DNA of 64,000 nt from Rhodopseudomonas faecalis (GTDB taxonomy: Bacteria > Pseudomonadota > Alphaproteobacteria > Rhizobiales > Xanthobacteraceae), in the NCBI RefSeq assembly GCF_003217325.1, contig NZ_QJTI01000004.1, positions 1 to 64,000 on the forward strand, read 5' to 3'. The position numbers were made by a program, and so were the translations under genes. This document shows, one piece after another, positions 4,859-22,480 of this stretch; positions within the stretch are counted from its first letter, which is position 1; every line of letters begins with the position of its first letter. The notes under the pieces were generated by a model. That model had not been told where the DNA came from. It saw nothing but the letters and a program-made list of their open reading frames with translations, and made no database searches.

Positions 4859-7800
4859 TCAAGACGCCGCCAGCCCGAGCGCCTGCCATTCGCGCAGCGC
4901 CTGAGCGTCGCGCGGCGACACGTCCGGGAATTCCGGATCGTCGCCGACCGTCGGCAGGATCTTCCAGGAACGTGCGCACTTCTTGCCCTGGGCCTTTTCG
5001 ACCACCACGCCGACATCGGCCAGTTCCGGCAGCCGGAACGCATCGGCCGGCGGCGTGTCATTGCCGCGCAGCAGGGTGACCATGGCATTCGAGGTGATGC
5101 AGATCTCGGCCCAGTCGACGTCGTACAGATCACCCATGATCTGCTCAGGCAGATAGATCATCGGCGAGGCTTCCAGCGACGAGCCGATGCGCTTGGCGGC
5201 GCGTTCGACTTCCAGCGCGCCGGTGACCACGCGGCGGATCGCGCGGACCAGCACCCACTTCTTCTCCAGCGCCTCGTCGCGATACTGCTCGAGCCCTTCG
5301 GGGAACAGCGTCAGATGCACGCTCGGTTCGCCATCGGGCCGATAGAGCTGCCAGGCTTCATCGGCGGTGAACGACAGCGCCGGCGCGAGCCACTTCAGCA
5401 CCGCGTCGCAGATGATGTCGATCGCAGTCAGCGCCGCCTTGCGGGTCAGCGACGACGGCGGCTCGCAATACAGCGTGTCCTTGCGCACATCGAAATAGAA
5501 CGCCGACAATTCGGTGTTCATGAAGTTCGCGAGCGAGGCGATCACGGTCTTGTAGTCGAACGCCGCATAGGCCTCGCGCACGATCGCGCTCTGCCCGGCG
5601 AGCTGATGCAGCATCAAGCGCTCCAGCTCCGGCATCTGATCGAACGGCACCGCCTGGTCGCGCTTGTAGTGATGCAGCGTGCCAAGCATCCAGCGGATCG
5701 AGTTGCGCAGCTTGCGATAGGTCTCGACCACGTTTTTCAGGATTTCCGGGCCGATGCGCTGATCGTCAGCGTAGTCGGTGGCGCACACCCACAGCCGCAG
5801 GATGTCGGCGCCGGACTGCGCGATCACCTTCTGCGGCTCGACGGTGTTGCCGAGCGACTTCGACATTTTGCGGCCGTTCTCATCGAGCGTGAACCCGTGA
5901 GTCAGCACATAGTCATAGGGCGCGCGGCCGCGGGTGCCGCAGCTTTCCAGCAGCGAGGAGTGGAACCAGCCGCGGTGCTGGTCCGAGCCCTCGAGATACA
6001 TCACGCTGTCCTGGCCGCCATCGACCTTGCGATGAATGCCAGCCAGCCCCGGGAAATGCACCGGGTCTTCCAGCACGAAGGCGTGGGTCGAGCCTGAGTC
6101 GAACCAGACGTCGAGAATGTCGTCGACCTTCTGCCAGTCCTCATTGGCGCGCGAACCCAGGAAGCGCTCGCGGGCGCCTTCCATGTACCAGGCATCGGCG
6201 CCTTCCTGCTCGAACGCTTCGGCGATGCGCTGATTGACCGCTTCATCAACCAGGATTTCGGCCGAGCCGTCGCCGTTCTCGCGCACGAACACCGCGATCG
6301 GCACGCCCCAGGCGCGCTGGCGCGAGATCACCCAGTCCGGACGGCTGGAGATCATGCCGGTGATGCGGTTCTGGCCGGCGGGCGGCACCCATTGCGTCAC
6401 CGAGATCGCCTGCAGCGCCCGGGCGCGCAGCGTGTCGCCAGACTTGGCGGCGCCGCCATCGGCGATGTCCTTGTCCATCGCGATGAACCATTGCGGCGTG
6501 TTGCGGAAGATCACCGCCTTTTTGGAGCGCCATGAATGCGGATACTGATGCTTGAGCTTGCCGCGCGCCAGCAGCCTACCGCGCGCGATCAATTCCTGGA
6601 TCACCGCCTCGTTGGCGTCGCCCTTCTCGCCCTTGTCGTTGATCACCCGCTTGCCGACCAAGCCGGGCACCTGCTCGGTGTAGGCGCCGTTTTCATCGAC
6701 AGTGTAGGGAATGGTCGAGGAGATGCCGCGCGCTTCCAGCGCCCTGGCATTGTGCGTCCAGATCTCGAAGTCTTCGCGGCCATGGCCGGGCGCGGTGTGC
6801 ACAAAGCCGGTGCCGGTGTCGTCGGTGACGTGATCGCCATCGAGCAGCGGCACCGTGAACTGATAACCGCCACCCAGGCCGCACAGCGGATGGGCGCATT
6901 CCAGCGACTTCAGCGTTTCGGCGGCAACGACGGCGACCTTCTCAAAAGCCACCACGCGCGCCTGCTTGAACACGCTTTCAGCCAGCGCATCGGCGAGGAT
7001 CAGCAGATCGCCGGTTTTCGCCCAGTTATCAGCCGGCGCGTCGGTGACCTTGTAGAGACCGTAGCCGATCTTGGACGAGAAGCTGATGGCGCGGTTGCCG
7101 GGCAGCGTCCAGGGCGTGGTGGTCCAGATCACGACCGACGCATCCGCCAGATCACCTCTCCCCGCTTGCGGGGAGAGGTCGGCGCGCAGCGCCGGGTGAG
7201 GGGGCGTTTCGACAAGGGAAGCCCCCTCACCCCGACCCTCTCCCCGCGCGCGGGGAGAGGGAGAAGTGACCGCGAACTTCACCCACACGGTATCCGAGGT
7301 GTAGTCCTCGTACTCGACCTCGGCCTCGGCCAGCGCGGTCTTTTCGACCACGCTCCACATCACCGGCTTGGAACCGCGATACAGCGTGCCGTTGGCAGCG
7401 AACTTCATCAGCTCGCGCGCGATCTGCGCCTCGGCGGCGTAGTTCATCGTCGCGTAGGGATGATCCCAATCGCCGATCACGCCGAGCCGCTTGAACTCGT
7501 CGCGCTGCACGTTCAGCCATTTGGTGGCATAGCCGCGGCATTCCTTGCGGAACGCGACCATCGCCGCCGAATCCTTGAAGTTCGGCTTCGGCTTGCCCTT
7601 GGAGCGGTAATTCTCCTCCTCGATCTTCCATTCGATCGGCAGACCGTGGCAATCCCAGCCAGGCACATAGTTGGAGTCGTGACCGAGCATCTGCTGGCTC
7701 TTGGTCACCACGTCCTTCAAAATCTTGTTGAGCGCATGCCCGATATGGATGTTGCCGTTGGCATAGGGCGGGCCGTCGTGCAGCACGAATTTCGGCCGTC

Positions 7801-7966: not shown

Positions 7967-8121
7967 GGCGCCGTCAATAGCGGTTTTGCTGCGCCGGGGA
8001 AACCCGAACGCATTGCACGGAAAGCAAATCTGCACCGACTTGCCCCGATTGCCGGCCTGCGGCAAGCCCCGGTTGAAAACCCTCTCCGAAAGGCTAATCT
8101 CTTGATCGAATGGAGGGTTTC

Positions 8122-8499
8122 ATGACCGCGAAGTCGCTGGCCGAGACCGTCGAGCGGTTCAAGGAGCTGCGGCGAAAAGGCGACAGCCGATCCGTCGAGG
8201 CTTTCATCTCTGATGAATCCCTGCTCGATCAGACCGAGACCATCCGCACGCAGGAGCAGGACCAGGCGGTGCGCTCCATTCCAGTGGGGCCCGAGCGCGC
8301 CGACGCGATCTTCCGGTCGGTCGCGACGCTCGCGCTCGCTGAACGGGTGTTCGGCAACCGGGACAAGGCGCAAGCTTGGCTGACACGGCCCAACCGGGCG
8401 CTGAACGGCCAACGCCCAGCCGACCTGTTGCAGGATGAGCTTGGCGCCGCCGTGGTGCAGGAGCTGCTGGAGCAGATCGACCACGGCATTTTCGCCTGA
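8122..8499 (+). CDS. Orphan MbcA/ParS/Xre-type antitoxin (toxin-binding domain)
   Basis: A 125-residue protein whose last 60 residues match the MbcA/ParS/Xre antitoxin C-terminal domain (DUF2384): LALAERVFGNRDKAQAWL, then RPNRALNGQRPADLL, ending in the GAAVVQELLEQIDHGIFA helix. In complete systems this domain docks onto and inhibits a RES-domain toxin that degrades NAD+, and the antitoxin gene lies just upstream of the toxin gene. Here only a short RES-like tail follows (8506-8574), so the antitoxin seems to have lost its partner. The ATG at 8122 is preferred because GGAGGG stands just upstream; an in-frame ATG lies four codons earlier. It is divergent from ileS. The N-terminal half shows no clear DNA-binding motif. 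Confidence 0.82.
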   Translation: MTAKSLAETVERFKELRRKGDSRSVEAFISDESLLDQTETIRTQEQDQAVRSIPVGPERADAIFRSVATLALAERVFGNRDKAQAWLTRPNRALNGQRPADLLQDELGAAVVQELLEQIDHGIFA

Positions 8500-8659: not shown

Positions 8660-8748
8660 GTCATGCCCGCGCTTGTCGCGGGCATCCACGTCTTGAAAGC
8701 GCTGCAAGATCAAAGACGTGGATGGCCGGGACGAAGCCCGGCCATGAC
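8660..8748. repeat. Paired REP (BIME-like) element, copy A
   Basis: Two different palindromes face each other: GTCATGCCCGCG..CGCGGGCATCCACGTCTT and AAGACGTGGATGGCCGGG..CCCGGCCATGAC. The inner ACGTCTT/AAGACGT sequences also pair. Copies with the same two halves lie at 31808-31897 and 46478-46568, and single halves at 4806-4835 and 52022-52051. A further small hairpin (GGTTCTGA/TCAGAACC) at 8792-8812 precedes the end of ribF. Confidence 0.9.
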
Positions 8749-8818
8749 TTGCGGATAGGTTGGTATCAATGGCCGTTGGTATCAGAGCCTCGGTTCTGAT
8801 TCACTCAGAACCAACAGC

Positions 8819-22452: not shown

Positions 22453-22480
22453 CACCTCTCCCCGCGCGCGGGGAGAGGTG
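22453..22480. repeat. CCTCTCCCC palindrome, intergenic copy
   Basis: A perfect 14+14-nt palindrome (CACCTCTCCCCGCG and its complement) lies 32 bp after the acyl-CoA ligase stop. It is the same hairpin that occurs twice inside ileS at 7150-7266. It could also act as a terminator stem here. Confidence 0.85.

Follow-up and report, generated by a model that had tools for sequence, protein, structure and literature searches.

The stretch of DNA analysed here (the window) covers 64,000 nucleotides of the Rhodopseudomonas faecalis genome and carries on its minus strand ileS, encoding isoleucyl-tRNA synthetase (IleRS), inside which lies a palindromic element (Table 1). The two hairpins and connecting inverted repeat originally predicted for this element from the sequence are borne out. 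The ileS frame runs from 7966 to 4859 straight through the element with zero stops and zero frameshifts, again as predicted, and its product reaches 779 bits with the NCBIfam ileS model, whose cut-off is 621. A non-functional gene together with a second ileS elsewhere had been named in advance as grounds for doubting the insertion; the frame is unbroken, and the genome holds no second full-length ileS, six further matches all being weak (64 bits or less) and one of these being another copy of the palindromic element. The element sits in the IleRS loop that begins after the VWVKF strand, which we take to be the start of the editing domain, and the insert ends about eight residues before WTTTPWT. 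Measured from anchor to anchor, this loop has 75 residues, vs. 42 in the sister species G002. The element itself codes for about 40 residues, close to the 39 or so that it had been predicted to add, but the net gain is only 33 because native loop residues were replaced.

Table 1. Features of the ileS locus and of related palindromic loops. Positions without a prefix refer to the window; G000 is the genome of the window.
Feature	Position	Strand	Remarks
ileS, isoleucyl-tRNA synthetase, 1035 aa	4859..7966	-	genome's only full-length copy
Palindromic element, in frame in ileS	7150..7266	-	about residues 234-273 (...LSPQAGRGD)
Hairpin 1 (first in ileS sense), perfect, 13+13 nt	7236..7261	.	
Connecting inverted repeat, 12+12 nt	7194..7232	.	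arms 7194-7205, 7221-7232
Hairpin 2, perfect, 12+12 nt with 2-nt loop	7154..7179	.	
ileS stretch just 5' of loop, diverged from G002	7277..7456	-	identity 0.87, 0.88, 0.95 in three 60-nt intervals
Single intergenic palindrome, same family as ileS element	22453..22480	.	
Palindromic uvrD/pcrA loop	G000:C23:23562-23699 (L153:582-3200)	+	loops of genus in L236-L247
DEXH helicase loop element	G000:C3:230152-230216 (L135:1-1839)	-	loops of genus in L256-L275
uvrD loop family, CCTCTCCCC type			G000, G004; by eye
uvrD loop family, CCCTCTCCC...GGGAGAGGG type, possible relative of CCTCTCCCC type			G010, G002; by eye
uvrD loop family, CGTC-type REPs			six genomes; by eye
uvrD loop family, CATCCTTCGAGA type			G009, G011; by eye

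Copies of the element are dispersed through the genome. The 24-nt core palindrome, with up to 3 mismatches, occurs at no fewer than 67 forward places in 4.07 Mb, compared with 0 for a reversed-pattern control, and its recurrence is thus not due to chance. With the 117-bp element as query, at least 100 matches were listed, some of which represent both strands of a single hairpin. In a sample of 40 genome stretches around listed matches plus two pieces of the window, 70 palindromes fell into 45 clusters, and 21 of these were two-hairpin clusters spanning 101-169 bp with a variable middle. None of 20 two-hairpin copies lacks an open frame, and in 12 of them three or four of the six are open. The copy count and intragenic share that had been proposed as a check could thus be supplied: recognised genes host three of the 45 clusters in frame. 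One of these genes is ileS, and the others encode a PcrA/UvrD helicase and a ligase-associated DEXH helicase; neither helicase reaches its NCBIfam equivalog cut-off, the analysed DEXH stretch being incomplete. This share is a minimum, because the remaining ORFs were judged by eye. Ten further long ORFs across elements of this genome were submitted to a Pfam scan, which found no family in nine and, in the tenth, a rhodanese starting downstream of the element; since no family spans the element, they were not counted as intragenic. The copy at 22453-22480 is the ordinary intergenic one that had been predicted, a single palindrome located after a stop codon. A CGTC-type palindromic pair (gtcatgcccgcgcttgtcgcgggcatccacg ... 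ggatggccgggacgaagcccggccatgac) was also noticed by eye at 8660-8750 of the window, downstream of a small ORF (8110-8499).

The element had also been called mobile, which we infer rather than observe: the genome gave no match to a Y1/RAYT-type transposase (PF01797, E 0.001; 5 of 14 controls were positive), and the ileS loop may have come in by a short recombination tract, as described below. In Rfam, six matches were obtained at E values of up to 1, all of them below their gathering scores. Among 23 aligned hairpin pairs from this genome, read by eye, most end in GCTCCCTC... and ...GAGAGGTGAA, with no common GTAG or CGTC end. Plasmid records with DNA resembling the window element number 168, including 66 from Sinorhizobium, and Rhizobium plasmids have such DNA too; one plasmid match labelled nitrite reductase actually lies between two genes.

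The loop that houses the element differs widely between relatives. In three HMMER alignments listed against solved bacterial IleRS, the query aligns up to residue 234 and again from 269 or 274, the solved enzymes having one to seven residues where the insert stands. Among 90 distinct loops of relatives, trimmed between fixed anchors and including three carriers of the element, length ranges from 4 to 61 residues and the sequences are mostly unrelated; on this comparison, the loop is naturally hypervariable in length. A segment of the same size in unrelated sequence had been named as evidence against an insertion. Relatives without the repeat do hold unrelated loops of up to 61 residues, and the site is therefore tolerant of indels. 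This tolerance disfavours a special effect on proofreading, the role originally suggested for the insert. The proximity of the insert to WTTTPWT would fit a model in which it tunes proofreading via the adjacent threonine-rich editing strand; however, mostly unrelated loops fill the same position in relatives, and the insert is predicted, albeit by a weak model, to be disordered. We consider such tuning highly improbable, and an effect of the element on IleRS proofreading unsupported. The AlphaFold model in question (33 similar rows) is poor overall (mean pLDDT 60.4, pTM 0.45) and better over residues 281-360 after the insert (block means 73-91). It gives residues 237-269 of the insert a pLDDT below 50 and no secondary structure, between strands 223-236 and 276-282, suggesting a disordered, flexible loop.

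We also considered the idea that other long ileS loops might be decayed repeats. Among the 26 loops of at least 24 amino acids, only the three carriers combine many dispersed-repeat matches with a strong fold. The other 23 lack a strong fold (z -2.8 to +1.8 against mononucleotide shuffles), 22 of them matching no repeat and one giving a single weak match. The idea was rejected on these grounds, and most of the diversity of the loop has another source. One long loop (L171, from G067) has a G+C content of 0.48 vs. 0.66 in its flanks, and several further long loops are likewise G+C-poor.

The best named relatives of this ileS belong to Rhodopseudomonas. Alignment with close relatives, as proposed with the original prediction, showed that 1 of the 16 genomes of the genus, that of the window, carries the repeat at this site; it is absent from the other 15 Rhodopseudomonas genomes, G002 included. 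The sister species has a plain short loop despite an identity of at least 0.92 in 24 of the 27 60-nt intervals compared around the insert (-720 to +900). The three intervals below this value are the outermost one on the 5' side (0.85) and two at -180 and -120 (0.87 and 0.88, respectively), while the eight intervals before the diverged stretch reach 0.97-1.00 and the 15 past the insert 0.92-1.00. In the 180 nt preceding the loop, R. faecalis is closer to G005 (0.956) than to its sister (0.90). Since this stretch is locally diverged and nearer to G005, either R. faecalis or G002 probably received it, perhaps together with the loop, by homologous recombination, and we regard it as a probable short recombination tract in one or other genome. 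The residues flanking the insert differ from those of the sister's loop, so that this is not a clean insertion and no target-site duplication, the mark of a MITE, is legible.

Two further genera carry this palindrome family in the same loop. Among 80 named relatives, the palindrome at the IleRS site was seen only in Rhodoplanes elegans (L088). A strict pattern applied to 391 genomes of the family identified three carriers, R. faecalis, Rhodoplanes elegans (G143, whose ileS segment is identical to that of L088) and G060, a member of another genus; this count is a lower bound because the pattern requires one hairpin arm to lie no more than 34 nt from the WTTTPWT codons. An order-wide pattern search of 397 genomes, including that of the window, found only the latter to be real, a match in G462 being a chance match to a short ordinary loop. 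The original view of an alphaproteobacterial case thus holds as regards an in-frame dispersed palindrome in a single-copy essential gene, absent from close relatives, but not as regards a lone one, given the two other genera and the two helicases with such elements. Misjoining of a repeat into ileS during assembly is given next to no credence: the genome is a draft of 62 contigs, and a repeat-bearing gene is divided between contigs in other assemblies, but the reading frame is kept exactly and the separately sequenced Rhodoplanes elegans and G060 show the same arrangement.

The three copies could stem from one insertion or from several. On an ileS tree of 45 rows, built after removal of the loop, the carriers stand apart from one another; its well-supported branches require 3 changes to explain the 3 carriers, and trees with a single change account for 0% of 200 bootstraps. 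The G060 element finds its best match in another copy of its own genome (148 bits), compared with 119 bits for the best copy in G000, 113 for the G000 ileS copy and 68 for that of G143. The two best matches of the Rhodoplanes elegans copy, among the loci compared, are likewise other G143 copies. The scatter on the tree and these matches within the carriers' own genomes favour, without proving, separate captures in the three genera. A single old ileS insertion, inherited or recombined between lineages, mostly lost and in part rewritten when resident copies served in gene conversion, is an unlikely alternative. It would account for the common orientation and junction codons (GGTGA then YCTSGC) of the three copies, could turn the three tree changes into one gain and two losses, and fits with the indications of a short recombination tract next to the loop, in R. 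faecalis or its sister. The window's own copy also lends itself to a single origin: in a pool of 21 elements it is equally close to a resident copy (70) and to the G060 ileS copy (69), and its best matches among the loci compared are G143 genomic copies. Against a single origin stand the dispersion of the carriers on the tree, the resident matches in G060 and Rhodoplanes and the repeat-free loops in the other 15 Rhodopseudomonas and in the 4 further members of G143's genus whose loop could be read (a fifth, 58% complete, gave no match).

The two helicases offer a view of occupied loops across the genus. The uvrD/pcrA loop, bounded by WLRLL(A/S)Q and KNICCVGDDDQSIYGW, could be read in 12 of 16 genomes; it is divided over two contigs in G006, G008 and G014, and G013 gave no match at the cut-off. 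The contigs that break at this repeat-bearing loop are C31 and C1 of G006, C56 and C17 of G008, and C213 and C198 of G014, the matches in G006 and G008 beginning no more than 25 bases from the first base of a contig. All 12 readable loops are palindromic, match dispersed repeats at 2 to 138 places (in 1.47 Mb of loci compared) and fold with z-scores of -5.2 to -8.7 relative to mononucleotide shuffles. By eye, they represent at least three distinct palindrome families, and the sister species R. faecalis and G002 (whose loop contains ten Ns) have different elements at this one site. The G010 loop opens with CCTCTCCCCGCGCGCGG, which is much of the hairpin of the R. faecalis type, and goes on with the other type, hinting at replacement of one element by another. 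In E. coli UvrD, four residues separate the two segments that align. The loop of the DEXH helicase was read in 14 of the 16 genomes (that of G006 falls in two open frames and that of G014 on two contigs), and in 12 of the 14 it matches dispersed repeats. Short remnants are seen in G008 and G012. One of the 12, the G009 loop, belongs to the CCCTCTCCC...GGGAGAGGG type and lies in an open frame that is just 147 aa long.

Pairwise dN/dS in 11 of the 14 DEXH loops (two remnants and one loop of another repeat type were dropped) was 0.57 in the true frame vs. 0.85 and 1.10 in the shifted frames, and 0.16 in the flanks. In the six CGTC-type uvrD loops the corresponding values were 0.50, 1.04 and 1.07, with 0.03 in the flanks, and a wider uvrD set (11 of 12 loops, the one with Ns dropped) gave 0.54 vs. 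1.07 and 1.13. The lower ratios in the true frame, obtained with a protein-guided alignment that is biased toward that frame, favour translation of the helicase-loop elements under weak constraint. Divergence at third codon positions, with stems defined by single-sequence folds, was lower in stems (DEXH 0.248, uvrD 0.156) than in non-stems (0.365 and 0.302) or flanks (0.312 and 0.229); the effect is smaller than with RNAalifold-based stems, which are partly circular. This is compatible with pressure on the palindrome, with gene conversion or with GC bias. Two-sided changes in consensus-fold pairs (5/52 in DEXH, 1/44 in the CGTC-type uvrD loops) are too few to decide.

If the hairpin were kept for a task at the DNA or RNA level, such as a translational pause before folding or protection of the mRNA, the peptide would be a by-product. 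The palindromic nature of all 12 readable uvrD loops despite their differing families, and the lower divergence of stems than of flanks in both helicases, are in line with such a role. However, 23 of the 26 long ileS loops have no strong hairpin, two DEXH loops have dwindled to short remnants, two-sided pair changes are few and the conservation of stems could also stem from GC bias, gene conversion or template-directed repair. We judge this role to be quite improbable.

In-frame insertion of REPs and of Rickettsia palindromic elements, with UvrD and tRNA synthetases among the targets, is already published. A gene-by-gene survey by Di Nocera et al. (2013, PMC3733652) describes intragenic GTAG/CGTC REPs that add residues in genes including UvrD/Rep helicases and tRNA synthetases, and names Rhodopseudomonas palustris among the hosts. 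It reports that recB was struck at about one site in two Xanthomonas species, while insertion sites differ in other genes of one category, and its authors suggest that intragenic REPs may occupy linkers or loops. The superfamilies are marked by a GTAG or CGTC tetranucleotide left unpaired on one side, with GTAG REPs being associated with Y1/RAYT transposases and no transposase link tabulated for the CGTC families. Our elements resemble those of the survey in being dispersed palindromes within genes, with UvrD and a tRNA synthetase among the targets. Unlike the REPs, the CCTCTCCCC element has no GTAG or CGTC end in the aligned copies, and the genome of the window lacks the PF01797 transposase match expected of a GTAG REP; the CGTC-type uvrD loops, by contrast, resemble members of the CGTC REPs (by eye and by blast). 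One loop is re-occupied here, whereas PMC3733652 reports differing insertion sites for other genes of one category. Rickettsia palindromic elements, described in a review (PMC10969869) as inserts of about 150 bp in frame in unrelated genes, belong to another bacterial order; the parallel drawn in the original prediction is apt as far as description goes, the ileS element being dispersed, intragenic, in frame, palindromic and absent in relatives. The RIME (Rhizobium-specific intergenic mosaic elements), according to PMC2573895, are palindromic, dispersed in rhizobia and intergenic. By description, the window element shares the first two properties, yet is intragenic in ileS, and the similar DNA on plasmids of Sinorhizobium and Rhizobium no more than hints at a link to RIME. 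Our literature search found no IleRS insert of this kind and no re-occupation of the UvrD loop in Rhodopseudomonas, although the supplementary gene lists and tables of Di Nocera et al. (2013, PMC3733652) may hold parts of either. What is new is the class of element, its place in the IleRS loop and the repeated filling of fixed loops in different genera and by different repeat families.

The best explanation, which we consider likely, is that the ileS segment is a captured copy of a dispersed RIME/REP-like palindrome, in a loop that has probably been filled more than once. Copies of the element would land throughout the genome, those within genes surviving only if they keep the frame, bring no stop codon and fall in a loop whose length can change. 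The IleRS loop after the VWVKF strand, occupied in three genera, would be one of these tolerant sites. The ileS copy would be translated as a flexible loop of about 40 residues rich in Ser, Pro, Arg and Gly, with the enzyme still working, and short homologous recombination tracts may also exchange such loops between strains. A bolder proposal, which we think rather unlikely, is that certain loops in housekeeping and repair enzymes serve as standing docking sites for palindromes. What is kept there would be a hairpin as such, whatever its sequence or the peptide it encodes, and it might act as a signal during translation or at the mRNA level.

The process can be followed in these bacteria, through a sister species with a plain loop and three genera with one loop occupied, and in the helicases as long-term retention and shrinkage at the DEXH site and as different families at the UvrD site of sister species. 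Whether such inserts are neutral passengers or are kept for their hairpin or their peptide is an old question that is now directly testable in harmless photosynthetic bacteria.
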